Below are positions 7,271 through 23,873 of a stretch of DNA of 64,000 bases, piece by piece. The DNA comes from Gluconacetobacter asukensis (lineage in GTDB: Bacteria > Pseudomonadota > Alphaproteobacteria > Acetobacterales > Acetobacteraceae): assembly GCF_014174375.1 (NCBI RefSeq), contig NZ_JABEQE010000013.1, positions 1 through 64,000 on the forward strand. Direction: 5' to 3'. How positions within the stretch are numbered: the stretch's first letter is position 1; every line of letters starts with the position of its first letter. A model generated the notes under the pieces. It made no database searches and was not told the origin of the DNA. It saw only the letters and a list, made by a program, of their open reading frames with translations. The position numbers and the translations under genes are program-made.

Positions 7271-8317
7271 ATGACCGATCGCGGCGGTTCAGCCCCTTTT
7301 TCCGTGCCGGATCGGGACCCCGACCGCATTGCCGGCCGGCTGCCGCTGCTGCGGCGGCGGGCGCTGGTGGCGCGCGGGGTGCGTGCCTTCTTCGATGCGC
7401 GGGGCTATCTGGAGGTCGACACGCCCTATGCCGTGCCGACCCCGGGCGAGGAAGTGCATCTGAAGGTGTTCCGCACCGAACGGCGGCATCATGACGGCAC
7501 CCGCGAGGCGCTGTTCCTGCATACCAGCCCCGAATTCGCCATGAAGCGGATCGTCGCCGCCACCGGCCTGCCGGTCTTCCAGCTGGCGCGCGTGTGGCGG
7601 AACGAAGAGGGCAGCCATCTGCATGCCCCGGAATTCACCATGCTGGAATGGTACCGGCCCGGCGCATCGCTGTCTGCGCTGATGGACGAGACCGAGGCGC
7701 TGATGCGCGCGGTGCTGCCGCCGGTCGTCGCGCGCCCGGCCGGGCTGGCGGACGCCGTTCCCCTGCGGCTGGACATACCGTTCGAGCGCCTGACGATGCA
7801 GGAGGCCTTTGCCCGGCATGCGGGGGTGGACCTGCTGCCGACCGAGGGCGATGCCGGCGCGCTGGCCGTGGCGGCGGGGTGTGCCCTGCGGGAGGGCGAG
7901 ACGTGGGAGGATCTGTTCTTCCGCCTGCTGATGGAGCGGGTGGAGCCCGCGATCGGCCAGGACCGGCCGACATTCCTGACGCATTGGCCGGCCAGCCAGG
8001 CGGCACTGGCGCGGCGCGACCCGGCCGATCCGCGCACCGCCCTGCGCTTCGAGCTTTATGCCGCCGGCATGGAACTGGCGAACGCGTTCGAGGAGCTGAC
8101 CGACCCGGTGGAGCAGCGCCGGCGCTTTGTGGAGGACCGGGCCCGGCGGGCGGCGCTGTATGGCACCGCGCCCGGGCTGGACTGGCCGATGGACGAGGCC
8201 CTGCTGGCGGCGCTGGCGCATCTGCCGCCCTGCGCGGGCATTGCACTGGGATTTGATCGGCTGGTCATGTTGGCGGCGGGGACGGCCCGCATAAATGACA
8301 TCTTATGGATGGGCTGA
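7271..8317 (+). CDS. epmA: EF-P lysine ligase EpmA (GenX/PoxA family)
   Basis: EpmA is a truncated class II lysyl-tRNA synthetase homologue that ligates beta-lysine to EF-P instead of tRNA. The 348-residue product lacks the anticodon-binding domain and starts directly with the catalytic core. Motif 2 is seen as FQLARVWRNEEGSHLHAPEF and motif 3 as GIALGFDRLVMLAAG. The ATG at 7271 is preceded by ACAGGAG; an upstream in-frame ATG at 7217 lies inside the intergenic region and is less likely. It is divergent from epmB and efp; no EpmC-like hydroxylase gene is visible. Confidence 0.93.
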   Translation: MTDRGGSAPFSVPDRDPDRIAGRLPLLRRRALVARGVRAFFDARGYLEVDTPYAVPTPGEEVHLKVFRTERRHHDGTREALFLHTSPEFAMKRIVAATGLPVFQLARVWRNEEGSHLHAPEFTMLEWYRPGASLSALMDETEALMRAVLPPVVARPAGLADAVPLRLDIPFERLTMQEAFARHAGVDLLPTEGDAGALAVAAGCALREGETWEDLFFRLLMERVEPAIGQDRPTFLTHWPASQAALARRDPADPRTALRFELYAAGMELANAFEELTDPVEQRRRFVEDRARRAALYGTAPGLDWPMDEALLAALAHLPPCAGIALGFDRLVMLAAGTARINDILWMG

Positions 8318-8427
8318 ACTAAGGACGGGTTGAAATATTTGTAATTTCATCCCCAATTCGTACGCCGTGGCGGTTATGCTACGTTAACGTCATGATAAAT
8401 TCTATCCTGTAGATCGGTAACCGGATC

Positions 8428-8856
8428 ATGAAATACCTCTCGCTCCTACCGCTGGCTGCCCTGCTCGCCCTGACGGCGTGCGAGGTGCCCTCTCCCGAGC
8501 AGCGGAAGCTGCTCAATTCGATGGTCGGCCGGGGCGAGGTGGATGTGATCCGCACGTTCGGCGTGCCCACGCGCTCCTATGAGGCCCAGGGCCATACGTT
8601 CCTGGCCTATATCGACAGCGAGACCAATTATTCGCCCGGTGCCGGCGGTTGGGGCTGGGGTTGGAGCGGCGGCCCCGGCTGGGGCGGCGGTTGGGGTGGC
8701 TGGGGAGGCGGCTGGGGCGGCCCCGGTTGGGGTCCCGGTTGGGGCGGCGGCTGGGGTGGCATGGGCGGCACCGTCTATACCAGCACCTGCCAGACGACCT
8801 TCGAGGTCATTGCCGGCCGGGTGTCGGGCTGGACGATGCGGGGCGACGGATGCTGA
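8428..8856 (+). CDS. Gly/Trp-rich lipoprotein, unknown function
   Basis: A 142-residue protein with a lipoprotein signal (hydrophobic LLPLAALLAL, then lipobox LTAC with Cys18). The mature N-terminus has an SmpA/Bor-like look (RGEVDVIRTFGVPTRSYEAQG, then FLAYIDSE). A low-complexity block of about 40 residues rich in Gly, Trp and Pro follows (about 75-118), then a short tail with two cysteines (TCQTTFEV and GDGC). The head and tail resemble small envelope lipoproteins whose turn predicts complex instability, but no name is assigned. A 6-bp hairpin follows the stop at 8862-8877. Confidence 0.75.
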   Translation: MKYLSLLPLAALLALTACEVPSPEQRKLLNSMVGRGEVDVIRTFGVPTRSYEAQGHTFLAYIDSETNYSPGAGGWGWGWSGGPGWGGGWGGWGGGWGGPGWGPGWGGGWGGMGGTVYTSTCQTTFEVIAGRVSGWTMRGDGC

Positions 8857-8921
8857 TTGCCGCCCGCTGAGGCGGGCATGACGACGGGGCGGCGCCGGGT
8901 CCGCCCCGCAAAGGGGGTGGA

Positions 8922-9629
8922 ATGAGTGCGGCGCGCGTTCTGATGGCCGGCCTGCTGGCATGTCCTGTCGCGGCCTGTGCGCCGGCGGCCTGGCAGGACC
9001 CGTTCGTGGTCCGTGGTGACAGCCGGGCGGCCGCCATTCCCACCGTTTCGGTCGAGCACAGCTACATTCCGGCGCTGGATCAGGGGCGGCCGGACAGTCA
9101 GGTGGCCTATGGCGCGCCCGACACGCCGATCTATCGCGACCGGCCGCTGAACGAGACCCTGCGCGGCAGTATCGAACTGGCCGATTATACGCGGGCGCTC
9201 GATCTGGCCGGGATGATGGCGCCGTTGCGGCAGGCGGGGCCGTTCACCGTGTTTGCCGTGCCCAACCTGCCGATGGAGCAGTTGGCCCGTGCATCCGGCC
9301 CGTCGGGTGGCGTGCCGGCGCCGGCGGTGCTGCATCGGGCGCTGGCCTACAGCATCGTGCGCGGGGCCTATCCGGCGGAGCGGCTGCGCCAGATGGTCGC
9401 CGCGGCGCCCGGTAACCGGGTCAGCCTGCCGACGGTTGCCGGCGGGGCGGTGCTGGTGGGGCGCGACCCGGCGACGGGGCGGCTGGTGCTGTCGGACGGG
9501 GCCGGGGGCGTGGCGCCGATCTGGATCGACGGGATGCCGCAATCCAACGGGGTGCTGTATCTGACCCGCTCGCTGCTGGGGGCGGCGCCGCCGGCCTCGG
9601 ATGATGGGGCGCCGGCCCGGACCGGGTGA
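8922..9629 (+). CDS. Fasciclin-domain secreted protein
   Basis: A 235-residue protein with a signal sequence (VLMAGLLACPVAACAP; the VAAC stretch could be a lipobox) and one fasciclin domain from about residue 75 to 215. Fasciclin features are DYTRALDLAGMMAPLRQAGPFTVFAV, the internal LHRALAYSIVRGAY (the usual LxxHVVxG position), and a closing NGVLYLTRSLL. Such domains mediate adhesion or protein contacts outside the cytoplasm. The start has AAGGGGGTGG just upstream. It follows the Gly/Trp-rich lipoprotein in the same direction, 65 bp away. Confidence 0.82.
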   Translation: MSAARVLMAGLLACPVAACAPAAWQDPFVVRGDSRAAAIPTVSVEHSYIPALDQGRPDSQVAYGAPDTPIYRDRPLNETLRGSIELADYTRALDLAGMMAPLRQAGPFTVFAVPNLPMEQLARASGPSGGVPAPAVLHRALAYSIVRGAYPAERLRQMVAAAPGNRVSLPTVAGGAVLVGRDPATGRLVLSDGAGGVAPIWIDGMPQSNGVLYLTRSLLGAAPPASDDGAPARTG

Positions 9630-9645
9630 TCGGGCCGGCTTCTAT

Positions 9646-10272
9646 TCAGGCTGCGTCTATGGCTGCGTTCATGGCGCGCACGCCGGCGGCGGGGCCTTCG
9701 GGGTGCGACCAGACGGCGCTGATCACGGCCAGGAAATCCGCCCCCGCCCGCACCAGGGGGGCGCAGTTTTCGGGGGTGATGCCGCCGATGGCCACCACCG
9801 GCAGTTCCATCATTGCGCTCCACCAGGTCAGCAGTTCCACGGAGGCGCGGATCTCGGTCTCCTTGGACGGTGAGGGGAAGAACGCGCCGAAGGCGACGTA
9901 ATCGGCCCCGGCCTCGCCCGCGCGCATCGCCAGATCCCGGCTGTCATAGCATGACACGCCCAGTTGCAAGGCGTCGCCCAGCAGGGCGCGGGAGGCGGTG
10001 GCGTCCGTGTCCTCGCCGCCCACATGGGCGCCGTCGCAGCCGCTGCGGCGGGCGAGGTCGGGCCGGTCGTTCAGGATGAAGGCGACGTCGCGCTCCTGCG
10101 CCACCGGGCGCAGGGTGTCGATCGCGCGGAGGATCGCATCGTCGGATACGTCCTTCAGGCGCAACTGCACGGCGGCGACGGGGCCGGCATCGAGGGCGCG
10201 CGCCAGATCCGGCGCGAACGCGACCGGGTCCAGGACCGGGGGGGTGACGAGATAAAGCTGACAATCATACAT
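9646..10272 (-). CDS. thiE: Thiamine-phosphate synthase
   Basis: ThiE joins HMP-pyrophosphate and HET-phosphate to make thiamine monophosphate. The 208-residue TIM-barrel protein shows [24 protein letters not shown] (phosphate and magnesium contacts), [35 protein letters not shown] (the GADYVAFG motif) and [29 protein letters not shown]. The start is ATG 10272 (MYDCQLYLV), because the longer frame to 10338 runs into the preceding gene and adds an unrelated tail. A small conserved-looking gene lies 10 bp upstream on the same strand, so the two are probably co-transcribed. Confidence 0.93.
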
Positions 10273-10282
10273 CGTGGGTCGA

Positions 10283-10753
10283 TCATACGGCGCCCCGCGT
10301 CGCAACGACAGGGGGGCAGGGGCGGATCGGTGGGCCATTCGTGCCGGCGATATAGGCCCGCAGCCGTTCGGGCGATGGGGTGGGGCCCACCACCCAATGG
10401 GGCGGGCGGCCGGGCAGGCAGGTTGCGCTCAGCGTGTGGGCCAGACGCTGGATCGTGTCTGCCTGGCGGCCGGTGCCGTGCAGCACGATATGGCGCAGGC
10501 CCAGCCCCAGGGCCTCGGCGGCGCGGCCTGCCGCCGTGCCGCAATCGAGGAAGGCGGGCAGTGAGGCCTCGGTTTCGGCCAGGAGCGCGCGCCACCAGGC
10601 GGGGCCCATGAAACAGCCGGCGTCGGCCGGTGACAGCAGGGCGATGCAAGGTGTGCCGGGCGTGTCGTGCGCGGGCAGCACGGAGAGGATTGCGCGGACC
10701 TCGACCGCCGAGGCGACGACGAAGACGCGCGGGGGGATCGGAGGGTGGATCAT
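10283..10753 (-). CDS. Hypothetical protein upstream of thiE
   Basis: A 156-residue soluble protein that I do not recognise by family. It starts [23 protein letters not shown] and contains [44 protein letters not shown] and a closing PHWVVGPTP. These alternate hydrophobic strands and helices, like a small Rossmann-type alpha/beta domain. It ends 10 bp before the ThiE start, so it is probably the first gene of a two-gene unit. Its start region faces the degenerate repeat at 10801-10938. Codon use matches the surrounding high-GC genes. No function is inferred. Confidence 0.7.
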
Positions 10754-10800
10754 TGCTTGACGTTGAACCCCGCGCGGGCGATCAGTTCAAGAGTGAGTGT

Positions 10801-10938
10801 CTGTCCGGATATGTGGACTGGCGAGCGGGCCGCGCGGGATATGCGTGGCGGATTGCTGCCGGCGCATGGGTCTGGACGGCGACCGAGACGCCGAGTGACG
10901 GGAATGACGACCGTGGGGCACGCTGATGGACCGGACAG
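10801..10938. repeat. Degenerate copy C of the 161-bp repeat family
   Basis: The ends CTGTCCGG (10801-10808) and CCGGACAG (10931-10938) are inverted repeats. The left 38 bases (CCGGATATGTGGACTGGCGAGCG and on) align with the end of copy A read on the other strand (CCGGAAATGTGGGCTGGCGAGCG in outline). The interior has diverged and is shorter. It fills the divergent gap between the hypothetical gene and the zapA unit. Assignment to the family is tentative. Confidence 0.4.
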
Positions 10939-10954
10939 CCCGGTTGCCTGGGGG

Positions 10955-11143
10955 ATGACCGATCCCGCAGACCGCCTGGAACAGGCATTGAACCGTATTG
11001 CCTTTGCCCTGGATCGTCGGGACGAGGCGGTGGCCCCGGGCCCTGACCTGCAGACGCTGGCGGCCAATATCGACGCCCTGATCGCGCGGGTGCGCGACGT
11101 GCTGGGGCCGGACGAGGATATTGACGGCATGGAGGAGGGCTGA
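10955..11143 (+). CDS. Small coiled-coil protein upstream of zapA
   Basis: A 62-residue acidic protein (MTDPADRLEQALNRIAFAL at the start, DEDIDGMEEG at the end) that looks like a short coiled coil. It ends 3 bp before zapA and is in the same direction, so it is probably translated from the same message. A similar small gene precedes zapA in several alphaproteobacteria, where a role in division-ring bundling has been guessed but, to my knowledge, not shown. The ATG at 10955 is preceded by GGGGG. It is inside a longer open frame, but the N-terminal part falls in the degenerate repeat. Confidence 0.6.
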   Translation: MTDPADRLEQALNRIAFALDRRDEAVAPGPDLQTLAANIDALIARVRDVLGPDEDIDGMEEG

Positions 11144-11146
11144 GCC

Positions 11147-11488
11147 ATGGCGCAGGTCACGGTCCGCATCAACGGTTATGCCTATGTCGTCGGCTGCAAG
11201 GACGGCCAGGAACGCCATCTCCAGGCCATGGCGATGGAGGTCGAGCGCCGGATCGAGCATATCCGCGCCATTGGTGGGCAGAGTGGCGAGGCCCGCATCC
11301 TGGCCCTGGCGGCTTTGCTGATGGCCGATGAGATCCATGACCTCTCGGTCGAGAAGATGCCTGCGGATACCGCGCGCCAGTTGACCGAGGGCCGGCAGGC
11401 GCGTGTGGAGAACGAGCGCCGGCGCGAACAGCTGGCCTTGCTGGTCGAGCGCGCCGAGAGCATTGCGGCGGCGCTCGAACATCCCTAA
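11147..11488 (+). CDS. zapA: Cell division protein ZapA
   Basis: ZapA binds FtsZ and promotes Z-ring bundling at mid-cell. The 113-residue protein shows the family start AQVTVRINGYAYVVGCKDGQERHLQAMAMEVERRIEHI, then LAALLMADEIHDL and a C-terminal coiled coil (ENERRREQLALLVERAESIAAAL). Length is typical. The order zapA, 6S RNA, 5-formyl-THF cyclo-ligase is widely conserved in proteobacteria, and that supports the calls for all three. Confidence 0.93.
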   Translation: MAQVTVRINGYAYVVGCKDGQERHLQAMAMEVERRIEHIRAIGGQSGEARILALAALLMADEIHDLSVEKMPADTARQLTEGRQARVENERRREQLALLVERAESIAAALEHP

Positions 11489-11489
11489 A

Positions 11490-11640
11490 TATGGGGAGCG
11501 GGGCTGCCGGACTTGTCAGGCAACTCAACCCCTGGGCCGATAAGCACTTCCTTAGGGAGCTGGCTCTGGCGTGATCCTGGTCATGTTATCTGGCGCCCAC
11601 CTGCGTGAGCAGGTCCGGGAGGGCTGAAAGACCAACGGTC
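11490..11640 (+). ncRNA. ssrS: 6S RNA
   Basis: 6S RNA binds the housekeeping RNA polymerase holoenzyme and damps transcription in stationary phase. The stretch between zapA and fau contains the conserved 5' block CCCCTGGGCCGATAAG, matching E. coli CCCTGAGCCGATA, and a 3' block TCTGGCGCCCACCTGCG. Closing-stem pairs are visible: CCGGAC (11507-11512) with GTCCGG (11613-11618), and TGGGC with GCCCA around the bubble. Gene position is the standard one. Exact ends are not fixed; I give the whole intergenic span except the first base after the zapA stop. Confidence 0.82.
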
Positions 11641-12246
11641 ATGGCGGCTCCGCACATTCCAACCCCATCCGATCTTCCCGCATCCGATCCGCCTGCGCTG
11701 GTGGAGGCGAAGGCCGAGCTGCGCCGGCATTTGCGTGCCGTGCGTGCGGCCGCGCCCGCGCCGGGGGCCGCTGCGGCGCTGTGCCGCCGCATGGGGGAGC
11801 ATGTCCGCGCCGTGTTGCCGCCGGGGGCCTGTGTCGCGGCCGTGTGGCCGTTGCCGGGCGAGGTGGATCTGCGCGGCCTGTGCGCCGGGCTGCATGAGGA
11901 CGGGTATGGCGTGCTGCTGCCGGAAACGCCGCCGCGTGGGCAGCCTTTGCGCTTTCATCGCTGGTCGCCCGAGGCGGTCATGCATCCTGGCCGTTTTGGC
12001 ACGCTGCACCCCGATGGGCCTGCGGCGCGGCCTGATCTGGTGTTCGTGCCGCTGCTGGGTTTTGACAGGCGGGGGTTTCGGCTGGGATACGGGGGCGGCT
12101 ATTACGACCGCACGCTGGCCGGGCTGCCCGGCGTGCCGGCGGTGGGCTTCGGCCTGTCGGCGCAGGAAGTGCCGGCAGTGCCGGTGGGGCCGTATGATGT
12201 GCCGCTGCCGTTGATCGTGACGGAGCGGGAAGTGATTCGGGTGTGA
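11641..12246 (+). CDS. fau: 5-formyltetrahydrofolate cyclo-ligase
   Basis: The enzyme converts 5-formyl-THF to 5,10-methenyl-THF using ATP, recycling a folate storage form. The 201-residue protein has the family signatures RRHLRAVRAA near the N-terminus, VWPLPGEVDLR, PETPPRGQPLRFHRW, and the ATP/metal loop DLVFVPLLGFDRRGFRLGYGGGYYDRTLA. The start at 11641 is just after the 6S RNA; a longer frame from 11605 would overlap that RNA and is rejected. A 120-bp repeat follows the stop. Confidence 0.93.
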   Translation: MAAPHIPTPSDLPASDPPALVEAKAELRRHLRAVRAAAPAPGAAAALCRRMGEHVRAVLPPGACVAAVWPLPGEVDLRGLCAGLHEDGYGVLLPETPPRGQPLRFHRWSPEAVMHPGRFGTLHPDGPAARPDLVFVPLLGFDRRGFRLGYGGGYYDRTLAGLPGVPAVGFGLSAQEVPAVPVGPYDVPLPLIVTEREVIRV

Positions 12247-12255
12247 GGGGTTTCT

Positions 12256-12376
12256 GTTCTTTTTTGGAAAAAAGAACCAAAAAACTTTTGATCTGTTCGG
12301 GAGCTTTTTGCTGGGGACATACGATGTCCCTGAACGGATAAAAGTCTTTTTGCTTCTTTTTCTTCAGAAAAAGAAG
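12256..12376. repeat. Nested-palindrome intergenic repeat, copy R1
   Basis: Three hairpins are arranged symmetrically: an outer left GTTCTTTTTTGG/AAAAAAGAAC, a central pair around TGTTCGGGAG with TCCCTGAACG, and an outer right CTTCTTTTTCTTC with GAAAAAGAAG. CAAAAAACTTTTGATC on the left is nearly complementary to GGATAAAAGTCTTTTTG on the right, so the whole 121 bp folds as one imperfect palindrome. Copies occur at 23874-23993 and, truncated, at 33132-33213. It separates fau from the YmdB-type gene and its right edge ends 34 bp before that gene's likely start. T-rich ends suggest it can terminate transcription in either direction. Confidence 0.8.
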
Positions 12377-12410
12377 GATGGCGGCCCCAACGTGGAAGAA
12401 GGAAAAACGG

Positions 12411-13226
12411 GTGCGGATCTTGTTTCTGGGCGACATTGTCGGCCGCACGGGGCGCGAGGCGGTGATGGAGGCGGTGCCCAATCTGCGGCGGGATCTGCGC
12501 CTGGACCTGGTGGTGGTGAACGGCGAGAATGCGAGCCATGGGTTTGGCCTTTCACTGCCTATCGCCCGTGACCTGTTTGCGGCTGGCGTCGATGTCGTGA
12601 CGCTGGGGAACCATGCGTGGGATCGCAAGGATCTGGTGGGCCAGATCGATGCCGAGCCGCGCATTATCCGCCCGGCCAATTATCCGCCCGGCACGCCTGG
12701 ACAGGGCAGTGTGGTGGTGGAGCTGGTGGATGGCCGCAAGGCGCTGGTGATCAATGTCATGGGGCGGCAGTTCATGGAGGCGCTGGACGATCCGTTCCGC
12801 GCCGTGACCGACATCATGGCGCGGCATCGGCTGGGGGTGACGGTGCATGCGGTGGTGGTGGATATCCATGCCGAGGCGTCGAGCGAGAAATGGGCGATGG
12901 GGCATGTGCTGGATGGGCGGGCTTCGCTGGTGGTGGGTACGCATACCCATACGCCTACAGCCGACCATCGCATTTTGCCCGGTGGCACGGCGTACCAGAC
13001 CGATGCGGGCATGTGCGGTGATTATGACAGTGTGATCGGCATGGGCAAGGACGCGGCCATTGCGCGGTTCCTGCGCCGGATGCCTGGTGAGCGGTTGCAG
13101 CCGGCGGAAGGGGTGGCGACGGTGGCGGGCATGATGGTGGAAACCGATGATGCTACCGGGTTGGCTCGTCGGATGGCGCCGCTGCGTATAGGCGGGTTGT
13201 TGGCACCTACGATGCCGGATTTTTGA
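12411..13226 (+). CDS. YmdB-family metallophosphoesterase (TIGR00282 type)
   Basis: Members of this family are cytoplasmic metal-dependent phosphodiesterases; Bacillus YmdB cleaves 2',3'- and 3',5'-cyclic nucleotides. The 271-residue product starts VRILFLGDIVGRTGREA, where Asp of LFLGD is a metal ligand. It continues with VVNGENASHGFG (GEN motif), VVTLGNHAWDRKD (GNH motif), VVDIHAEASSEK and VVGTHTHTPTADHRILPGGTAYQTDAGMCG, the complete set for the family. GTG 12411 has GGAAGAAGGA 7 nt upstream. An ATG at 12378 lies at the very edge of repeat R1 and would add a non-conserved leader. Confidence 0.88.
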   Translation: MRILFLGDIVGRTGREAVMEAVPNLRRDLRLDLVVVNGENASHGFGLSLPIARDLFAAGVDVVTLGNHAWDRKDLVGQIDAEPRIIRPANYPPGTPGQGSVVVELVDGRKALVINVMGRQFMEALDDPFRAVTDIMARHRLGVTVHAVVVDIHAEASSEKWAMGHVLDGRASLVVGTHTHTPTADHRILPGGTAYQTDAGMCGDYDSVIGMGKDAAIARFLRRMPGERLQPAEGVATVAGMMVETDDATGLARRMAPLRIGGLLAPTMPDF

Positions 13227-13748
13227 ATTTAGGACGGATAATGGGTGTAGAGGCTACTGGTACCCGTTTCCCATATTGTGATGCTCGTGGCCAATAAGGC
13301 GCACTCAGCAGTGAGGCGGGGAAACGCACGACAGAGCATACCGCTTTGTGGCGTTCCCGCTCGTCAATTTATGTTCGCGAACCCAAAGCCGAGCGGCCTA
13401 TCCCGTCAGGGGGGGGCATTTATTGAGTGATGGCACCCTTTTTCAAACATGACCGCTTGGGCGGCTAAGTAGAATGTCCGGCTTCTGGCAAAGAGGAAAG
13501 AAAAGCCGTCATTTTAAAAGGTGGGTGTTAATGATGGTACTGTTGCCCTGGTAATCATTTGTGAGTGGTTAATTCAGTCTAGAAATCTGCCATTCACGGT
13601 AAGTTTAATAAAGGGAGGCAACGGGCGGCGAACGGCTGTGCTCTTGTCCTTGTCCTCCGAGTACTTTTGTAGCAAGCTGATCATTCGCGGCGGTTGTTAA
13701 GTATTGTGCCTTCAATATCTCCAGACACGATTTGACGGAAAGTGATCG
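13227..13748. other. Gene-free AT-richer stretch upstream of the reverse transcriptase
   Basis: No convincing coding region was found in these 522 bases. Composition shifts from the GC-rich chromosome to AT-rich within the first 40 bases, marking the left edge of a transferred island. It holds a strong hairpin (13312-13366), a perfect palindrome GTTCGCGAAC (13373-13382), an 8-G run near 13409-13416 and a second stem GTGAGTGG/CCATTCAC (13561-13597). A minus-strand 68-codon frame overlapping the RT start has no support. In several defence RT systems such a region encodes the template RNA. Confidence 0.6.
13312..13366. other. Candidate structured RNA upstream of the RT gene
   Basis: GCGGGGAAACGC (13316-13327) pairs with GCGTTCCCGC (13351-13360) apart from a small bulge. 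Inside, ACAGAGC (13331-13337) pairs with GCTTTGT (13343-13349) with one mismatch and an ATACC loop. The result is a long two-part stem about 390 nt before the RT start. A smaller CACT/AGTG hairpin lies just upstream. It could be part of a noncoding RNA used by the RT, or a terminator for the chromosome side. No promoter was identified with confidence. Confidence 0.4.
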
Positions 13749-15392
13749 ATGGTCAAAAAAGATGAATTTCGTGTAGCCGCCAAAATTGCTGTTCAAAACC
13801 TTATCAAACATGGCGATACAGACATTTTCCCTCGGTCATTTGAAGGGCACGCAATTTACGATAAATCGGATCTTTTTGTTGATCTGATATGTGAATATGA
13901 CGAAAACTTTGATGATTATCTTGCGCGATTTCCACCATCGAATACCAACGCATTAATACCCGTCTCATATTATGGATTTCGTTGGGGCACCCAAATGGAC
14001 CCCGTCTGGAACGCGCATTTTCTTAGCTGTGTCATCGCTCTCTCTGCGAAAATAGAGGCCACCAGAATTAGGATAGACGCAGAAACAATTTATTCTTATC
14101 GCTACCGGCCAGATGAAAAAACAGGCGATCTATTTGATCGTAATTTCAGCTGGCATGCATTTATGATGAAGTCGCTAAGGCATTGTGAAGATTATGAGTT
14201 TGTCACCACCTGCGACATAAGTGAATTCTACCCAAGGCTCGGTCATCACAGACTCGAAAATGCACTTCTTCAAATTGCAGGCGAGACGGCATACCCGAAG
14301 AAAATTATGTCATTCCTCGCCAACTTTTCAAATACACGTTCCTTCGGACTGCCCATTGGTGGTCCTGCAGCACGTATTTTATCTGAACTGACAATTAACC
14401 AAATTGACCGCCTTCTGCAGGGCAAGCGTATTCCTTTTGTAAGGTTTGCTGATGATTTTCATCTTTTCGCACACAGTCGAGAAGAAGCTTACAGGCAGAC
14501 CATTTTTTTATCCGAGAAATTATTTGAAAATCAAGGTCTTTCTCTTCAAAAATCAAAAACGAGAATCATGACAACTTCTGAATTTCGTGCGACGTGTCCG
14601 GTTCAAGAGCCACTGGATGACGGGATTGCTGAAGAAGAAGGTAAAGTCATCGCAGATAAACATGAGCGATCGAAGCTACTGCTTAGTTTTTCTCTGCGGT
14701 TTGACCCCTACTCGCCAACAGCCGAGGAGGATTATCAGAATTTAAAAAATGAAGTTAGAAATTTTGATATTTTGGGACTGCTGAAGGAGGAACTTGCGAA
14801 GTCTCGCGTTCACATTGCTCTTTCCCGCAAGATAGTATCAGCAATTCATTATCTTGAAGGTCGCACTAAAGACGACGCGGTTTTGTCTGTAATAGAAAAT
14901 AGTGATGTTCTTTATCCAATTTTCTCGTCCGCGCTAATCATGATGGATCGGGTTTTTGGAGAATTGGGGGATAATGCTCAGAAGCGCCTTACAGAGAATA
15001 TTATTGCGTTGATTCACTCCGAATCTCATGTTTTTCGAGTTGATGTCCATCTCTGCTTTGCCCTTAGGGTTCTTCAGCACTTGAACACAGAGGAAAATCA
15101 ACAGCTAATAAAGGAAATTTACGAGACTAGAAAATCTGATATTGTTCGACGAGATATTATTCTGATTATGGCGCTCTGGGGCGATTGGTACTGGCTATCC
15201 GACCTTCGGAATCAGTACAGGCAACTTAGCGGACCTGAAAAGCGAGCTCTTTTGGTTGCGTCTTATGCCCTGAGGGATGAGGGAAAGCATTGGCGTGAAC
15301 ATATAAGGAAAGAGTTAAACCCATTTGAGAAGTTTATTCTTTCTTGGGCGGGAGACCGAGTTGGCAGGGGCAGAAAGGACTTCCCGTTGTGA
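13749..15392 (+). CDS. Reverse transcriptase, UG/Abi (DRT-like) defence type
   Basis: A 547-residue protein with an RT fold in the first half: TCDISEFYPRL (Asp156), GLPIGGPAARILSE (from residue 200), VRFADDFHLFAHS (catalytic Asp235-Asp236, FADD in place of YADD) and GLSLQKSKTRIM. The N-terminus has a distinctive NLIKHGDTDIFP block. The second half (about 300-547) is all-helical, like the alpha-repeat C-termini of Abi-type RTs. There is no group II maturase or endonuclease domain, no DGR repeat pair and no retron VTG motif. It overlaps the nuclease-like gene by 4 bp (GTGA). AT-rich codon use differs strongly from neighbours, so it was acquired horizontally. The likely role is antiphage DNA synthesis; the exact class is not assigned. 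Confidence 0.85.
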   Translation: MVKKDEFRVAAKIAVQNLIKHGDTDIFPRSFEGHAIYDKSDLFVDLICEYDENFDDYLARFPPSNTNALIPVSYYGFRWGTQMDPVWNAHFLSCVIALSAKIEATRIRIDAETIYSYRYRPDEKTGDLFDRNFSWHAFMMKSLRHCEDYEFVTTCDISEFYPRLGHHRLENALLQIAGETAYPKKIMSFLANFSNTRSFGLPIGGPAARILSELTINQIDRLLQGKRIPFVRFADDFHLFAHSREEAYRQTIFLSEKLFENQGLSLQKSKTRIMTTSEFRATCPVQEPLDDGIAEEEGKVIADKHERSKLLLSFSLRFDPYSPTAEEDYQNLKNEVRNFDILGLLKEELAKSRVHIALSRKIVSAIHYLEGRTKDDAVLSVIENSDVLYPIFSSALIMMDRVFGELGDNAQKRLTENIIALIHSESHVFRVDVHLCFALRVLQHLNTEENQQLIKEIYETRKSDIVRRDIILIMALWGDWYWLSDLRNQYRQLSGPEKRALLVASYALRDEGKHWREHIRKELNPFEKFILSWAGDRVGRGRKDFPL

Positions 15393-16084
15393 TCGATGCT
15401 TCTAGTTTCGCCACACTGCATAACGCATTCTGGGCTGAACATGCGCCTACGTCGGAGCACTTCGTTCGACGTCTCAATCTTGAATACACCGAGAGATGGT
15501 CACCTCCAATCGATAAGCCACGGGAGAAAATCCGTGCAGCTTTCGTCTCCGAATTTGCGTTTGCACGGTTCTGTGGGCGTGCTTCTGGCCTCGACCCAAG
15601 TCAACTGGATACAGCTGCATTCACTGAAACGAAAAAGAGACTAATCCCTCTGATGGATGACTCAAAAGAGTTGGATCTGCCGTTGTCACTTATAGAAAAG
15701 AATCAAGTGAAGCATCTTGAAGAGAGTTTGGTGGGATTTTTTGGACGGAGAGGTAAAGAACTTTACATTAGGCCAATTTTTAAAGGCTGTGGATATGTTG
15801 ATAGCTCGGAAGCGGATGTGATTTCGGGCTCCTGCCTCTTTGAAATTAAAGCAGTCGACCGTCCGTTTAGGAGTGTGGATATTAAACAACTGGTGACTTA
15901 TTATGCGCTCAATCATGCGTCCAGACAATTCGACCTCGAGAGCATTGGTATTTTCAATCCACGCCGAAGTGTTTGGTTTGAGATGAACTTTGATGAAGTT
16001 TCCCGAGAAATATCCGGACAATCAGCACAGGAATTGTGTGATAATGTGGTGCTGGCGGTATCAAGTGGAGATATATCGCGATAG
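15389..16084 (+). CDS. PD-(D/E)XK nuclease-like partner of the RT
   Basis: The GTG at 15389 overlaps the RT stop (GTGA) and has AAAGGA 9 nt upstream; the 231-residue product is therefore translationally coupled to the RT. Near the C-terminus Asp143 in EADVISGSCLFEIK and Glu152-x-Lys154 form a D...EXK triad, the core of PD-(D/E)XK nucleases, followed by VDRPFRSVDIKQLVTYYALN as in restriction-like folds. The N-terminal half (FAFARFCGRAS and on) is unassigned. Paired with the RT it may cleave DNA or process the RT product. I recall an RT plus PD-(D/E)XK layout for one DRT type but cannot confirm identity here. Confidence 0.72.
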   Translation: MIDASSFATLHNAFWAEHAPTSEHFVRRLNLEYTERWSPPIDKPREKIRAAFVSEFAFARFCGRASGLDPSQLDTAAFTETKKRLIPLMDDSKELDLPLSLIEKNQVKHLEESLVGFFGRRGKELYIRPIFKGCGYVDSSEADVISGSCLFEIKAVDRPFRSVDIKQLVTYYALNHASRQFDLESIGIFNPRRSVWFEMNFDEVSREISGQSAQELCDNVVLAVSSGDISR

Positions 16085-16112
16085 GGTGGAAGTGGCCAGT
16101 CTCAGTTAGCCG

Positions 16113-17249
16113 CTACCTATTCGGGCGCTTATGACCGAATAACCTCCAGAAAGTATTGAAAATAGGCGTAAGCGTCTCTGCGCTAATACGCTCAAGTCGT
16201 AAGGAAGGGAGAGCCGCCTCATCGCGATAAGCCGTGGTTCCATTAAAATGGTCGCGTTGAAGATCATAACCCCTAATGTTGAGGATCGTTACAGCTACGA
16301 CCCATGGTCCGGATATGCCCATCTGAGTTAGACGATTTGCTGCTGTCATCGCCTGATCACACAGGCCACCTTCGAAATAATTGGCGAACACTAAGCGCGC
16401 TTCGCTTTCAGATGAGGTTTGGCTGGGGCCGCCAAGCCTCCATGCTGCTTCAATGCGGCCAGATCGGTGCGTATGAGCATATCCTTCGACCATGGAAACA
16501 CCATTTTCCGTCGGGAGCCCATGGATGAGCGTTCCTTCCAGAGTAGTCATCCACGACGTTGGTGAGGGCCGCCTCAAGTAAGGTTGCTGGGAGTTAAATT
16601 CGTCAAGTTCTACATCCCGTGTCTGTCGAAAGTAGTCGAGCGGCGTCAGGGATAACACAGCAGCCGGCAGTGTGCCGATTGAAAACGGCATGTTCCTGCC
16701 CTTGGCGGCAGCAACAGCTATCTCATGGATCCCAGTCAAACGGTCAGCGAGGTGCTCCCCGCCAGTAAAGGTTTCCCGAAGCTCTTGTATATCCATTTCA
16801 TACTTTCCCGCACTGTTCCGGCGATAGAACCTACCGCCTTTACTTGCGACCGAGCGATGGGGCGCAATCATACTGGCCGGTATCCTTATAACAATAATTT
16901 GTTCACCGGATGCGAGTCTCAGCGCGCGTGATCGTATACCTGCTACACGTGGCTCCAGACCGTCTCTGATAATGCTCTCCAGCCTTAGAATTTCTTTGTC
17001 CGCGTCGATCATTCCTATTCCTGGAAGAGCATTTGCCTGCCCTGCCTCAGCCCCTACTCCAAGGAGAAGATCGCCTCCTTGCGCGTTCGCAAATGCAGAA
17101 ACGTCAGCAAGCAGCTCGCGTTTTGCCTCGTCATTTGTTCCATAGGTTTCAGACTTAAATTCGATGTAAAGGTCTTCTGTGGTTGAATTTTCGATAAGAA
17201 ATATAATATTTTCTTCTCGAATATTTTCAAATGGCACGTCCCGTAACAC
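16113..17249 (-). CDS. AlbA_2 (Schlafen-type) DNA-binding domain protein
   Basis: This 378-residue protein opens with an AlbA_2 domain: LYIEFKSETYG (the E-K pair), LLADVSAFANAQGGDLLLGVG, and the closing VIRIPASMIAPHRS then GGRFYRRNSAGKYEMDIQEL (about residues 20-165). Such domains are found in regulators and in antiphage Schlafen-like proteins, where they bind nucleic acid. The C-terminal part (about 170-378) is not recognised. It converges on the RT and nuclease genes, 28 bp from the nuclease stop, and shares their AT-leaning codon use. It could be a third part of the system or a separate passenger. Confidence 0.8.
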   Translation of the reverse strand: MLRDVPFENIREENIIFLIENSTTEDLYIEFKSETYGTNDEAKRELLADVSAFANAQGGDLLLGVGAEAGQANALPGIGMIDADKEILRLESIIRDGLEPRVAGIRSRALRLASGEQIIVIRIPASMIAPHRSVASKGGRFYRRNSAGKYEMDIQELRETFTGGEHLADRLTGIHEIAVAAAKGRNMPFSIGTLPAAVLSLTPLDYFRQTRDVELDEFNSQQPYLRRPSPTSWMTTLEGTLIHGLPTENGVSMVEGYAHTHRSGRIEAAWRLGGPSQTSSESEARLVFANYFEGGLCDQAMTAANRLTQMGISGPWVVAVTILNIRGYDLQRDHFNGTTAYRDEAALPSLRLERISAETLTPIFNTFWRLFGHKRPNR

Positions 17250-17393
17250 CTTATTTTTTCCCCTAGATATTCGTCATAAAATTTTCTACCCGCGATCACT
17301 TAGGGTAGTATTATAACTCATATCGTTCATCTGGAGTATGCGGAGTGGAATTGTGGTATGGCGATGTTGTTCGATGAACGGTCGTCCATTTTC

Positions 17394-17442
17394 CGGCTCT
17401 CGTCAGTATGCTCATTACGTTCGATATGAGGGGCGAGAGCCG
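17394..17442. terminator. Nested inverted repeat at the right edge of the island
   Basis: CGGCTCTCG (17394-17402) and CGAGAGCCG (17434-17442) are exact complements; inside them CTCAT (17411-17415) pairs with ATGAG (17426-17430). It lies 29 bp beyond the MFS transporter stop on the minus strand and 145 bp upstream of the AlbA_2 start, near where composition returns to high GC. It could terminate the transporter transcript, although no T run follows, or mark a recombination site. Confidence 0.45.
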
Positions 17443-17470
17443 ACATCTTTCCTGACGATATAGCCGCCAT

Positions 17471-18745
17471 TCATTGAATGGGTCGATAACGGCCATACAG
17501 GCGGGCGTTGAGGAGGATCAGGGTCAGGACTACTGTTGCGGCGGTGCCTACCGTGAGCATCATGGCGGGGGCGAGGCCGGTGCCGAACCAGGTGGCGAGG
17601 GCGGTTTGGAGCAGGGCGTTGCTGGCGGCGATGAGGTTGCCGCACTGGTAGGCGAGGCCGGGGAAGGTGGCGCGGACCGAGGCGGGGGAGAGTTCGCTGA
17701 GATAGGCGGGGACGACGCCCCAGGCGCCCTGGACGCAGAACTGGATGCAGACGGCGCCGACGGCGAGCCAGAAGGGGGAGTGGGAGAGCGCCCACAGCGG
17801 CAGGAAGGGCAGGGTGAGGAAGGCGGCCAGCGCGATGCTGTATTGGCGGCTGATCTTCTGCGACAGCACGCCGAAGAACAGGCCGCCGACGATGGCGGCG
17901 ATGTTGTAGAGCACCACGATCAGCGTGATGGAGGGGTGGGGCAGGTGGCGTTCCAGCCCCAGGAAGATCTTGGGATACAGGTCCTGCGAGCCGTGGCTCA
18001 TGAAATTGAAGGCGGCCATCAGGGTGATTGCGAAGACGCACAGCGCCGCGTTGTTGCGGACGATGAACCACAGGCTGGGGGGCTTGGTGGCGCGGGCGCT
18101 CTGGTCGTGCCGGCGGCGCAGCCATTCGGGGCTTTCGGGCACGCGCAGCCAGATATAGACCGCCGCCAGCAGGGCGCTGCCGCCGAGGATGAACAGCCCG
18201 CGCCAGCCGACGAAGGGCAGCAGCAGGAACACCAGAGACGCCAGCAGGTATCCGGCCGGGTAGCCGGCCTGCAGGATGCCCGAGGCGGTGCCGCGCCATG
18301 AGGGCGGGATGCTCTCCATGATCAGCGACGTGCCCACGCCCCATTCGCCGCCCAGCGCCACGCCGAACAAGGTGCGCAGCAGCAGGAAGATGGCGAGGTT
18401 GGGGGCGAAGGCGGACAGGATCTCGATCGCGGAATAGACGATGATGGTGGCGATCATGACCGGTTTGCGCCCGTACCGGTCGGCGGCGTGCCCGCACAGG
18501 AAGGCGCCGATCGGGCGGGTGAGCAAGGTGAGCGTCGGGGCGAGCAGGATGCTTTGCAGCGAGACGTGGAAACTGCGGGCGACATCGTCGAGCGTGAACA
18601 GCACGATGAAGAAATCGCAGGCATCGAGCAGCCATGCCAGAAGGGAGGCCAGGACCACATGGCGGGAGGTCGCCACGTCGTAGGTCTGCGCCTGTCCTGT
18701 GATCGTCGCCGGTGCGGCTGCCATGTCGTTCATGCCTGTTTCCAT
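17471..18745 (-). CDS. MFS transporter
   Basis: A 12-helix major-facilitator protein of about 424 residues. The loop 2-3 signature is GHAADRYGRKPVMIATI, and TM4-5 contain FLLLRTLFGVALGGEWGVGTSLIMESIPPSWRGTASGILQAGYPAGYLL, as in the sugar-acid and aromatic-acid symporter branches. LLDACDFFIVLFTLDDVARSF in TM1 also fits that group. It probably imports an organic acid. Start choice is open: ATG 18802, 18745 or 18733; the helices begin well after all of them. It runs in the same direction as, and downstream of, an OprB-type porin, which suggests joint uptake across both membranes. Confidence 0.85.
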   Translation of the reverse strand: METGMNDMAAAPATITGQAQTYDVATSRHVVLASLLAWLLDACDFFIVLFTLDDVARSFHVSLQSILLAPTLTLLTRPIGAFLCGHAADRYGRKPVMIATIIVYSAIEILSAFAPNLAIFLLLRTLFGVALGGEWGVGTSLIMESIPPSWRGTASGILQAGYPAGYLLASLVFLLLPFVGWRGLFILGGSALLAAVYIWLRVPESPEWLRRRHDQSARATKPPSLWFIVRNNAALCVFAITLMAAFNFMSHGSQDLYPKIFLGLERHLPHPSITLIVVLYNIAAIVGGLFFGVLSQKISRQYSIALAAFLTLPFLPLWALSHSPFWLAVGAVCIQFCVQGAWGVVPAYLSELSPASVRATFPGLAYQCGNLIAASNALLQTALATWFGTGLAPAMMLTVGTAATVVLTLILLNARLYGRYRPIQ

Positions 18746-18883
18746 CCCTTGCAAGCGCTTTTCCGGTCCGGCGCGTTTTGCCTGCTCTTCTGTAGAGAGC
18801 ATCGGTTTGGCGAAGATGCGCCTGATATTTAGTTTACCGCGGCCGTGCGATCATATTCGGGCGATGGCCCCGGCATGGCGGGG

Positions 18884-20473
18884 TTACAGATTGGCGATCA
18901 TCTTGATGCCGACCAATGTTGCGTTGGGAATGACCGATGTTTCGCCCGGGCGCATCATATATTCGAATTCGGGATAGAGGATCAGGCCCGGCAGAACGGG
19001 CATGCTGTAATAGGCCTCCAGCACCGCCGAATGGGTTTGCGGGCCCGTGACGTATGGGCCGAGCGGCAGGCCGGCGTCCTGCCGCAGCCGCTGCCCGTAG
19101 GCCAGGCGCGGGCTCATCTGGTAATAGGAATACATCAGGCCCAGCCGGTCGAAGGGGCGCCCGGGCACGATCCCGAGCAGCGCGGTGCCGAAATAGAATT
19201 CGTCGGCGAAGGTGGAGATGCTCGGCGTATTGTGGATATAGCCGGCCATCAGGTAACCGCCGGACATCTGGCTGGTGCCCTGGGTGCGATAGATCATCTG
19301 GTCGGCCTCGATATAGAACGTGTCGCGCGGCCTGTCGGCATGGGCGCGGGTCGTTTCCCGGTCGATGGCCGGCACGGTGCCGATCATGTCCGCATAGGGC
19401 GAGGTGTCGTGCCCGTAGCCGAACTTGTAGTGGCCGACGAGCTTGTGCGGGCCGAAGAAGGGTTCCCATGTCAGTTCCACCGGTGTCTGGATGCCGGTGG
19501 TGGTCTCGCTGGCCCAGGCCCAGCCGGTATTGTCCTCGGGCTTGGGGGCGATCTTGTAGATGCCGGTGCGCAATGTCAGGTCGCGCAGCGGCCGGAAGCG
19601 CAGCGTGCCGCCCCATGAGGTCTTGGGATAGACGCTCCAGCCCGGGGGTTCGCGGATGGCCATCGGTGCGGAACATTGCATCATGAACGTGCACAGCAGC
19701 GCCGAGGTGCCGTAGGTGTGGGTCAGCGCGATGCGGCCGATATTGATGTTGAGCCGGTCGCCGAGAAACGATTTCTCGGCGTAGAGATCGGCCAGTCGGG
19801 CGGCGGCGGGGCCGTGGATGCTCCATAATTCGGTCAGCAGGACATTGCGTTCGCCGACATGGTCCCAGCCGACCTGGCGGCCTTCGCGGTTCATGACCAG
19901 CCCGTGGACGTACCATCCGTCCAGCCCCAGCAGCTTGCCCAGGTCGAACAGCATGGTCACGCGCAGGTCATGGACATAATCCATGCCCTGGGACAGGCCG
20001 CCCGCGATATTGGCCATGCCCTCGGCCTTGTAGATCATGTCGAAGGTGAAGCCGCGTTGGCTCAGCCATTGGCGCCATGGTTTGGCCTGCGGCAGCAGAT
20101 TGCCCGAGGAGCGGTCGATCGCGAAATAATCGGCGCTCGGGTCGCCGGCGCGCAGGGCATCGTCCTCGGGCGCCAGCAGGGTGGAGAGGCTTTCCCCCTC
20201 GAAGAGCGGGTTCAGCCTGTCTTCGGCGAGCGGGCGCTTCTGTTTCACCTGTGTGATTGTTGCGGCCGGGCTGTTGGTCGCACCGAGGCAGGTGGATGCG
20301 GTCATGCAGAGCAATGCCACGAGCAGTGAGACGGTGAGGGATGTTCGGTCGTTGATGATGATGCGGATATCGGGCGCCTTGGTGTGGAGGGCGTCGGCAA
20401 ATGGATTTGCTGCAAACGGCATTCTGTCCGGACAGGGACGTGCGCGAGAGGAGGCAGTCACCGCGAGGGACAT
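18884..20473 (-). CDS. OprB-type carbohydrate porin
   Basis: A 529-residue outer-membrane barrel of the OprB family. After the leader it shows PWRQWLSQRGFTFDMIYKAEGMANIAGG, LDGWYVHGLVMNREG and NINIGRIALTHTYG, and ends NATLVGIKMIANL, typical of this porin group in acetic acid bacteria. The signal-like stretch LTVSLLVALLCMTASTCLG comes unusually late (about residues 46-64), so the true start may be an internal codon, for example ATG 20422. It should pass sugars or similar solutes. The MFS gene follows on the same strand and a palindrome lies just upstream of the start. Confidence 0.85.
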   Translation of the reverse strand: MSLAVTASSRARPCPDRMPFAANPFADALHTKAPDIRIIINDRTSLTVSLLVALLCMTASTCLGATNSPAATITQVKQKRPLAEDRLNPLFEGESLSTLLAPEDDALRAGDPSADYFAIDRSSGNLLPQAKPWRQWLSQRGFTFDMIYKAEGMANIAGGLSQGMDYVHDLRVTMLFDLGKLLGLDGWYVHGLVMNREGRQVGWDHVGERNVLLTELWSIHGPAAARLADLYAEKSFLGDRLNINIGRIALTHTYGTSALLCTFMMQCSAPMAIREPPGWSVYPKTSWGGTLRFRPLRDLTLRTGIYKIAPKPEDNTGWAWASETTTGIQTPVELTWEPFFGPHKLVGHYKFGYGHDTSPYADMIGTVPAIDRETTRAHADRPRDTFYIEADQMIYRTQGTSQMSGGYLMAGYIHNTPSISTFADEFYFGTALLGIVPGRPFDRLGLMYSYYQMSPRLAYGQRLRQDAGLPLGPYVTGPQTHSAVLEAYYSMPVLPGLILYPEFEYMMRPGETSVIPNATLVGIKMIANL

Positions 20474-20501
20474 GGTATCGTTAGCCGATTCTTTGTTATT
20501 A

Positions 20502-20518
20502 TTTCATGATGCATGAAA
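20502..20518. promoter_or_regulatory. Operator-like palindrome upstream of the OprB porin
   Basis: TTTCATG and CATGAAA flank ATG, forming a perfect 17-bp inverted repeat 29 bp before the porin start. Position and size suit a repressor or activator site; the regulator is not known. Confidence 0.4.
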
Positions 20519-20709
20519 ACATCGTCTGTGGGGGCATTCTCAGCATTGTCATGCCGGAAGGACAATAGATGCCGGTCTGAATATAAATTATGTTTTATTC
20601 GAATGAGTTTTGCCGAAATCGAGAAATATTTTCTGAACCATTGGGTTACGGTTCATTGTGTGCCGCGCTTCACCGGGTCGTGAGAGGCTGTCTTCACCAA
20701 CTGGTGACT

Positions 20710-21657
20710 TCAGAGACCGGGCGCTATGGGAACATGGCCGGGATTGTCGTGCATGTTTGCGAGATCGGCCAGTGCGTGATCGAGAATGTCGGCGACCAGC
20801 CGGGCGGCGGCCGAGAGATGCCGGCCCCGGTCGTGGACCAGGGACAGGGCCAGCGGACGCACCGAGGCGTGGGCCAGTCTGGTGAAGCAGAGCTGGCCGT
20901 GCGCGACCTCATCCATCACGTCCAGGGAACTCAGCAGGCTGATGCCCGTGCCGGCGGCCACCAGGGATTTGATCAATTGTACATTGTTGCTGGTTGTCGC
21001 CACCCGCGCGGTGACGGCGCAATCGGCTTCGAGGCGTGCGAAGATCGCGGCAACGGCGAGGGGGGAGGCCGGCACGATCGTCGGTTCGTCGGCGCAGAGG
21101 GAAAAGCGCGTGGATGCCAGCCGGGCCAGCCGATGGCCGGGGGGCGAGACGAAGCCCAGCGGAAACAGGGCCGCGCTGCGCACATGCAGGCTGCGTATGC
21201 CCTCCGGGTCGAGCATCAGGGCCAGGTCGGCCTCTCCGTCATCGAGCAGGCCCGCGATTTCCGCATTGTCGTGGACGCGGAGATTCAGGACGATGCCGGG
21301 ATGGGTCTGCCTCAGACGGGCGATGATGCCGGTCAGGAAGGAGCGGGTCAGGGCCTCCGGCGCCACCAGGGTGACCTGGCCCCGGCGCAATCCTTTCAGA
21401 TCGTCGATCTGCCGCGCCACGTCTTCGAAATCGCGATGCCAGCGGCGGGCGTGGGCGTGCAGGATTTCGCCGGCGGCGGTGAGGCGCATGCCGGTGGGCA
21501 GCCGTTCGAACAGGGAGGTGCCGAGGGCCTGCTCGCCTTGCAGGAGCTGCCGGTCGATTGCCGAGGCGGCGATCCGCAATTCATCGGAGGCGCGGCGGAT
21601 GGAACCGTGGCGCGCGACGGCCAGGAAATAGAGCAGGAACCGTGAGAAGGCCGGCAT
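20710..21657 (-). CDS. LysR-family transcriptional regulator, divergent from the Rieske gene
   Basis: A 315-residue LysR protein. The N-terminal winged helix is FSRFLLYFLAVARHGSIRRASDELRIAASAIDRQLLQGEQALGTSLFERLPTGMRLTAAG in outline (residues about 3-62), with a degenerate first helix compared with most LysRs. The substrate-binding domain follows (RGQVTLVAPEAL, then FVSPPGHRLA and a C-terminal GTGISLLSSLDV). The start at 21657 excludes a non-conserved extension. It is divergent from the Rieske oxygenase with 106 bp between starts, the standard layout for a LysR and its target. Confidence 0.88.
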   Translation of the reverse strand: MPAFSRFLLYFLAVARHGSIRRASDELRIAASAIDRQLLQGEQALGTSLFERLPTGMRLTAAGEILHAHARRWHRDFEDVARQIDDLKGLRRGQVTLVAPEALTRSFLTGIIARLRQTHPGIVLNLRVHDNAEIAGLLDDGEADLALMLDPEGIRSLHVRSAALFPLGFVSPPGHRLARLASTRFSLCADEPTIVPASPLAVAAIFARLEADCAVTARVATTSNNVQLIKSLVAAGTGISLLSSLDVMDEVAHGQLCFTRLAHASVRPLALSLVHDRGRHLSAAARLVADILDHALADLANMHDNPGHVPIAPGL

Positions 21658-21763
21658 GGCGGGTGCTCTGATTTTGCGAACGGGGAAGATGAAATTCTGA
21701 TATATACGCGAATGCGACAGGCATGAAACCATGGTGGCCGACCCGTATTGCAGGAGGCCCCCG

Positions 21764-23866: not shown

Positions 23867-23873
23867 GAAGGAT

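Follow-up and report, generated by a model that had tools for sequence, protein, structure and literature searches.

A DRT8 reverse transcriptase–nuclease pair in an AT-rich island of Gluconacetobacter asukensis and the possible gating of its nuclease by protein-primed DNA

The locus and its surroundings

Two overlapping genes on the forward strand occupy positions 13749–16084 of the 64-kb window, the whole stretch of DNA analysed here. The upstream gene (13749–15392) encodes a 547-residue Drt8 reverse transcriptase (RT), closed by TGA and assigned from PADLOC, Pfam and the predicted structure, with an N-terminal region, an RT domain (motif A D156 and the FADD pair D235/D236), an FDPYS loop (residues 318–322) and an all-helical C-terminal region. 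The downstream gene (15389–16084) encodes a 231-residue RT-associated PD-(D/E)XK nuclease with a GTG start and a TAG stop, assigned from PADLOC, its model and the invariant motif D143...E152-x-K154...Q167-x3-Y171. The RT stop and the nuclease start share four bases, GTGA, and the ORF positions agree with the two-gene anatomy, coordinates and 4-bp overlap given in an earlier note on this DNA. A longer nuclease ORF from a TTG at 15344 is also open, and the GTG at 15389 is preferred because homologues start at the same place. Downstream, 28 bases separate the nuclease stop from the next, convergent gene (16113–17249, reverse strand), which encodes a 378-residue Schlafen AlbA_2 domain protein (Pfam SLFN_AlbA_2, E = 6.9e-13). 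Promoter-like and terminator-like sites were found by scan at chance level (9 against 6.3 expected and 3 against 4.5 expected, respectively).

The pair sits in an AT-rich island whose composition does differ from both flanks (43–46% against 59–72% G+C), as the same note had claimed. In 1-kb windows the G+C fraction is 0.428 from 14001 and 0.455 from 15001, compared with 0.625–0.720 at 8001–13000 and 0.591–0.679 at 18001–24000; the island edges lie at 0.50–0.57 and the remainder of the 64-kb window at 0.59–0.76. This drop, together with blastn against a region of the same genus (L076), delimits an acquired stretch (13230–17474) between conserved ymdB-like and MFS genes. When window positions 11901–19000 were compared by blastn, positions 13229 and 17475 corresponded to positions 1096 and 1110 of L076, in which the island is replaced by 13 bases. 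The other four of the five same-genus regions compared at the island site either carry other genes there (L074 and L075) or had no second flank in view (L077 and L078), and no match to the RT was found in the 12 other genomes of the genus listed in the order-wide RT search. The AlbA_2 protein was considered as a third component and rejected, being absent beside the relatives and from same-genus genomes: blastp against the ORFs of loci L001–L042 matched the window's own copies alone, and 0 of 13 other same-genus genomes gave a match. This neighbour is probably not part of the system.

Comparison with a 75% identical relative in a Roseomonas record (L002) sets the two genes apart as a cassette, significant DNA similarity being confined to 13746–16041, from the RT start to nearly the nuclease stop; the other matches between the two records are 12–20 bases long with E values of 0.36 or more. 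In E. coli the pair lies between a tyrosine recombinase gene (int) and the phage polarity suppression gene (psu) of a P4-like satellite, beside tRNA-Thr, with the RT start overlapping the integrase end by 8 bases. It is present in 105 of 5426 E. coli genomes, a count that reflects spread and not diversity because 104 of the 105 are at least 99% identical. An adjoining non-coding RNA (ncRNA) was rejected, since the window has no flank in common with L002, there is no upstream room in E. coli and no credible Rfam match was found. No Rfam family matched in the island at gathering score and none credibly at E ≤ 1, the single match (E = 0.35) lying far under its gathering score.

Assignment to DRT8 and the relatives of the pair

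Searched against PADLOC-DB, the RT matches Drt8 over residues 10–536 of 547 (E = 3.8e-159), with UG21 next (E = 1.4e-38), and its partner matches RTasPDDEXK over residues 1–231 of 231 (E = 6.6e-68); in Pfam the RT matches RVT_1 alone (E = 1.7e-13). The earlier note had called the RT UG/Abi-type and its partner PD-(D/E)XK nuclease-like, and both calls were borne out, the former by profile and fold (among the class models the RT gave Drt8) and the latter by the RTasPDDEXK profile, with weak support from the predicted fold. A Drt8 profile match, a PD-(D/E)XK partner and intact catalytic residues in both enzymes are all present, and, judged from these sequence matches, the window pair is a new member of the named defence type DRT8. 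The note had left a choice between a divergent member and a new type; the first part stands and the second is rejected, because the models already in place for DRT8 match almost the whole of both genes. DRT8 reportedly corresponds to UG7 in the Mestre 2022 scheme.

Other kinds of RT were also considered. A group II intron RT was rejected (TIGR04416 at 57.4 bits against a cut-off of 300, RVT_1 as sole Pfam match and no Rfam intron match), as were a retron (NF038233 at 38 bits against a cut-off of 235, with no Rfam retron match in the island) and a diversity-generating retroelement (DGR; no direct repeat of at least 30 bases in positions 12900–17700). Across the NCBIfam models for group II introns, retrons and other DRTs, the RT falls far under every cut-off, so that the reported absence of maturase, retron and DGR features holds as far as these scores and repeats reach. 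Neither outcome named beforehand as fatal to the original reading, a mobile-intron or DGR assignment of the RT or a partner fold unrelated to nucleases, arose, the nuclease fold matches being weak.

DRT8 is characterised by a PD-(D/E)XK domain according to the accessible text of PMC12596737 (2025), and is the type with such a partner that the earlier note had mentioned. The available portions of two 2026 sources (PMC13213688; PMC13314766) describe DRT8 as antiphage at the family level, with its mechanism not established; such lists can lag, because both give DRT1 as unresolved, yet the June 2026 source PMC13275509, in the part available, treats DRT1. We found no DRT8 mechanism in print in the open literature, most subscription papers lying outside this scope. 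Pseudomonas syringae carries DRT8, partly in prophages (PMC13182921, available part). For the locus described here, an antiphage role would follow from its family membership.

Searching 395 genomes of the order with the RT gave matches in 30 at E ≤ 0.001, and in 11 of these at E < 1e-25. The Drt8 profile reached E ≤ 1e-30 in 5 of the 398 genomes searched across the phylum, and the nuclease profile E ≤ 0.001 in 6 of 385 genomes of the class, three of them strongly; neither profile matched in any of 14 control genomes. In viral contigs neither the RT searched alone nor the nuclease alignment gave close relatives. Phage records gave six partial RT matches, none covering 80%. In plasmids tblastn with the nuclease found none at 1e-5, and diverged nuclease partners in plasmid loci L043, L044 and L046 were found by profile. 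The window RT is ~27–36% identical to the E. coli-type and plasmid DRT8 members with a nuclease.

Thirteen nuclease-linked loci (the window, L002, L004, L005, L006, L038, L039, L043, L044, L046, L048, L051 and L052) were compared with nine whose RTs have Drt8 as best profile (E = 2.2e-85 to 1.6e-160) and no nuclease in the fetched flank (L007, L008, L011, L012, L033, L034, L035, L045 and L047), meaning none by profile in a downstream flank of mostly ~1.4–1.5 kb (0.75 kb in L012, 3.6–4 kb in L045 and L047). In all 13 pairs the nuclease gene overlaps the RT end, by 4 bases in seven, 11 in five and 23 in one, lengths that depend on the start chosen. Because the other loci were found by nuclease-based selection (L038 and L039 via the nuclease profile, L048–L052 via an alignment of nuclease-linked RTs), the RT and Drt8-profile searches account, besides the window, for seven loci with and nine without a nuclease. 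Left out of the comparison were L001, L032 and L037 (these are the window), L003 (its protein is that of L002), L049 and L050 (close duplicates of L048), L009 (a transposase-like ORF interrupts the RT), L010 and L014 (truncated at contig ends), L013 (RT split in two ORFs), L015–L017, L019–L021 and L023–L031 (weak matches, taken as other RTs), and the plasmid hits H4 and H7 (by coordinates apparent copies of the L045 region), H8 and H9; L018, L022 and L036 were used solely as the outgroup.

A single branch of a maximum-likelihood tree sets the 13 nuclease-linked RTs apart (support 99/95; recovered in 98% of 200 bootstrap trees), with a weak outgroup join (48/59) and a long-branch warning that includes L012, L035 and the outgroup rows. 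The pattern is what one acquisition of the nuclease by one Drt8 lineage would give, in a sample that is small and partly selected. RT and nuclease distances are closely correlated (r = 0.96; 0 of 10000 permutations as high), and the two trees have 5 of 10 splits in common, several forks being weak.

Three of the nuclease-less loci, L034, L047 and L007, have a DUF87/HerA gene upstream of the RT on the same strand (Pfam E = 5.6e-8, 4.3e-8 and 1.6e-6, respectively; PADLOC HerA models agree). The copies of L034 and L047 are 82% identical and that of L007 is only distantly similar, and in L008, from the same subclade, the PADLOC candidate PDC-M02B (E = 3.1e-116) takes the upstream place of the HerA-like gene. 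The scan covered same-strand ORFs of L007, L008, L010, L011, L012, L033, L034 and L047 and the opposite-strand neighbour of L045, and left out L035; its other upstream genes are unrelated, namely an SMC-like gene in L033, a methylase with MazE/PemK-like parts in L011 and an integrase in L010 (not among the nine), and the L012 upstream ORF and the L045 neighbour had no match. HerA-like gene and RT may form an alternative unit or an ordinary defence-island neighbourhood, between which three related cases cannot decide. The partners of Drt8-profile RTs seem exchangeable.

Conserved residues and predicted folds

The catalytic residues of the RT, D156, D235 and D236, are invariant in 13/13 nuclease-linked and 9/9 nuclease-less relatives, and the numbering of the FADD pair as Asp235/236 in the earlier note is right. 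The FDPYS motif is invariant in 13/13 nuclease-linked RTs and in the model sits in a loop between the RT and helical regions, where confidence near Y321 is ~68–69. Y321 is found in seven of the nine nuclease-less RTs as well, and may be the best sequence candidate for a priming residue. W87, F318, S322 and G512 are specific to the nuclease clade, being absent from all nine nuclease-less RTs, and could be partner contacts.

The RT model, made with six sequences, has a mean pLDDT of 79.5 and a pTM of 0.76, and from residue 304 to 538 consists of helices alone, in line with the all-helical C-terminus noticed earlier. Its best 20 PDB matches are all Abi-P2, UG15/DRT4, DRT6, AbiK and AbiA chains (E = 1.3e-10 to 2e-8), with moderate TM-scores by query length of 0.39–0.54, highest for DRT6 (0.54) and AbiK (0.53). 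The predicted model thus shows the RT and all-helical repeat domain of an AbiK/Abi-P2-like fold that define Class 1 UG/Abi RTs, at moderate TM-scores, and we place the window RT in this class because of that predicted fold and the lack of an ncRNA signal. The Class 1 systems studied so far synthesise DNA with no nucleic-acid template, and some of them prime it on protein (PMC13174585, a 2026 preprint, available part). By analogy the window RT may also carry out template-independent, protein-primed synthesis; fold similarity does not prove untemplated synthesis.

In the nuclease, D143, E152, K154, Q167 and Y171 are invariant in 10/10 and in 6/6 rows of two alignments, the second having four rows new relative to the first, one of them a near-copy of another. 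The residue numbers Glu152/Lys154 given earlier for the D...EXK triad are likewise right. The other aligned rows are 17–62% identical to the window protein, and a C-terminal arginine ends the nuclease in 12 of the 13 pairs compared. Its model (pLDDT 80.5, pTM 0.80) has a strand-strand-strand-helix-strand core, as expected of the PD-(D/E)XK superfamily, with D...(D/E)xK on a helix-flanked β-sheet, although fold-search support is weak: the best PDB matches are ACE1 (Cas4 family) and then Dna2, at E = 2.1e-3 to 2.7e-2, none at ≤ 0.001, and TM-scores of 0.35–0.38. A QxxxY motif marks RecB-type nucleases, and here it follows ExK as Q167 and Y171, as in the RecB/Cas4 type; Cas4 itself is known for its iron–sulphur cysteines. 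Searching solved structures with a nuclease profile gave nothing, and neither did Pfam at significance, the ten rows matching nothing under E = 0.1. Three nuclease relatives, L040, L041 (PDC-S61) and L042, have no RT match in their fetched flanks.

A possible gated effector and its alternatives

Starting from the gene anatomy, the family, the conserved catalytic residues of both proteins, the predicted RT fold class, the co-divergence and the lack of a detectable ncRNA, we tentatively favour, at a little short of even confidence, a model of an antiphage system in which the nuclease is the effector and is gated by DNA that an RT oligomer carries, made without a template and primed by protein. 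The Class 1-like RT, probably oligomeric, would synthesise DNA untemplated by nucleic acid, with one or more of its own residues as primer, for which Tyr321 in the FDPYS loop is the best candidate. The co-translated RecB/Cas4-type nuclease would bind the RT, and the RT-attached DNA may keep it checked and ready, by analogy with DRT1, in which protein-primed DNA adducts control an effector (PMC13275509, available part). Phage infection would then alter the DNA or the complex, and the nuclease would cut DNA so that the infected cell no longer supports the phage, a putative abortive outcome. We favour the nuclease as effector because its relatives also occur without an RT match nearby, because partners look exchangeable and because the Cap17 nucleoside-phosphorylase effector is tabulated with DRT8 in the accessible part of PMC10952713. 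This reading leads other roles for the nuclease by a small margin. Conservation of the nuclease would suit restraint or processing just as well.

The closest contender, less probable yet to be taken seriously, is that the RT alone makes toxic DNA which the nuclease constantly degrades, and that growth arrest follows when a phage blocks RecB-like nucleases, or coats DNA, and the product accumulates. DRT8 would then encode for itself, in cis, the control that DRT3 and DRT9 receive from host nucleases: RecBCD restrains DRT3, which the phage RecBCD inhibitor Gam triggers, and ExoI restrains DRT9 (PMC13174585, available part). The ExK...QxxxY motif of the partner, its Cas4/Dna2-type best fold matches and the retention of the catalytic residues in every nuclease aligned from the clade are in keeping with this. 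The RT can, however, exist without the nuclease, because nine Drt8-profile RTs have none beside them, for which host nucleases or another partner could serve, and nuclease relatives without an RT match nearby fit an effector. Carried further, DRT8 may itself encode the nuclease check for which other DRTs rely on the host: a RecB/Cas4-like enzyme, acquired once by one lineage of Drt8 RTs, would destroy the untemplated DNA in healthy cells and also be a bait for phage inhibitors of RecB-like nucleases, making the system an autonomous guard. We rate this conjecture as rather unlikely; if it is true, nuclease-less Drt8 relatives would need host nucleases in its place, or a HerA-like ATPase in the case of one lineage. 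The same anatomy and the motifs conserved in both proteins would also suit a nuclease that trims the DNA of the RT or frees it from its protein anchor to give an active product, the DNA itself being antiviral; nothing specific speaks against this, and the DRT literature, in the parts available, offered no precedent for such release; we consider it improbable.

A system templated by RNA, resembling Class 2 or the retrons and relying on an ncRNA that has escaped recognition, is more improbable still. Several DRTs do have ncRNAs (PMC13213688, available part), and an RNA inside the coding sequence is possible, but no flank is common to the window and L002, where ~220 bases of downstream flank exist, upstream room is lacking in E. 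coli, 28 bases are left before the convergent gene in the window, and the Rfam results and the Class 1-like fold point elsewhere. A domesticated or decaying retroelement with no part in defence is the least credible reading, as no positive support for it was found; against it, neither ORF is interrupted and no catalytic residue is missing, and the E. coli pair lies in P4-like satellites, described as carrying an antiphage hotspot (PMC9122126, available part).

The type itself is already named, and the value of the locus lies in comparison for a defence type whose mechanism appears unsolved. RTs of one profile occur both in the nuclease-linked clade and without a nuclease, which provides a natural contrast between a polymerase that has this partner and one that lacks it. 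The pair from the E. coli P4 satellites should be convenient to handle in the laboratory for distinguishing an effector from a restraint.

Within DRT8, the window pair has the same gene order and two-gene overlap as the 12 other pairs, and none of the tested features differs. Its nuclease resembles ACE1, Cas4 and Dna2 in a weak fold likeness and in the D...ExK...QxxxY motif, without a sequence match to solved structures by profile. The candidate defence protein PDC-S61 of PADLOC matches the window nuclease over residues 135–210 (E = 4.1e-8), and its best member here, L041 (E = 1.7e-88), differs from the window nuclease in that no RT match was found in the flanks fetched for it. The best fold likeness of the RT, covering both the RT and the helical C-terminus, is to DRT4, DRT6, Abi-P2, AbiK and AbiA of Class 1 UG/Abi, at 11–19% sequence identity in the fold alignments; DRT4 and DRT6 are single-gene systems as described in the accessible part of PMC13213688, whereas the window system has two genes. 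In DRT1, a Class 3 RT-nitrilase, an RT likewise works with a hydrolytic effector that protein-primed DNA controls (PMC13275509, available part), but there the nitrilase effector is fused and the class is another; the likeness to the model proposed here would be one of working logic alone.

Gene turnover at the insertion site

The acquired low-G+C stretch that holds the DRT8 pair (window 13230-17474) is flanked by a ymdB-like gene on one side and an MFS gene on the other, and comparison with three same-genus regions (L074, L075 and L076) identifies this interval as a site of gene turnover. Only 13 bases separate the two flanking genes in L076, while the interval contains two other ORFs in L074, one of them DUF6037, and a P-loop-like ORF together with a 149-aa ORF in L075. 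No tRNA was found in the 64 kb window; a 6S RNA is encoded at 11498-11654 on the (+) strand (74.9 bits). Convergent with the nuclease gene is that of a 378-aa Schlafen AlbA_2 domain protein (16113-17249, (-) strand), for which none of the 13 other same-genus genomes contained a match; its gene is possibly a second one on the island with an accessory or defence role.

Drt8 RTs without an adjacent nuclease gene

The nuclease gene is absent from the fetched flank of nine RTs (those of L007, L008, L011, L012, L033, L034, L035, L045 and L047), yet Drt8 is their best profile, and the RT profile by itself therefore overcalls the two-gene system. Immediately upstream of three related members, a HerA/DUF87-type ATPase gene is found (L034 2-1465, L047 1645-3786 and L007 114-1169), whose product is a possible alternative partner; in L008, of the same subclade, PDC-M02B occupies this upstream place. 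Downstream, the neighbours of the closely related L034 and L047 RTs differ, the latter RT being followed on its Aminobacter plasmid by a second, different RT gene (L047 3968-7653; second gene annotated at 5809-7653). At a further locus, L009 (1198-3766), a transposase-like ORF interrupts the Drt8-type RT.

Nuclease C-terminus and relatives lacking a nearby RT match

Arginine is the last nuclease residue in 12 of the 13 pairs. This C-terminus, at 16067-16081 in the window, lies in a tail modelled with very low confidence, and could serve as a docking tail or active-site plug. Nucleases related to the DRT8 partner (E-values 1.2e-12 to 8.8e-5) are also encoded at L040, L041 and L042, where the flanks fetched gave no match to an RT; that of L041 corresponds to the PADLOC candidate PDC-S61.
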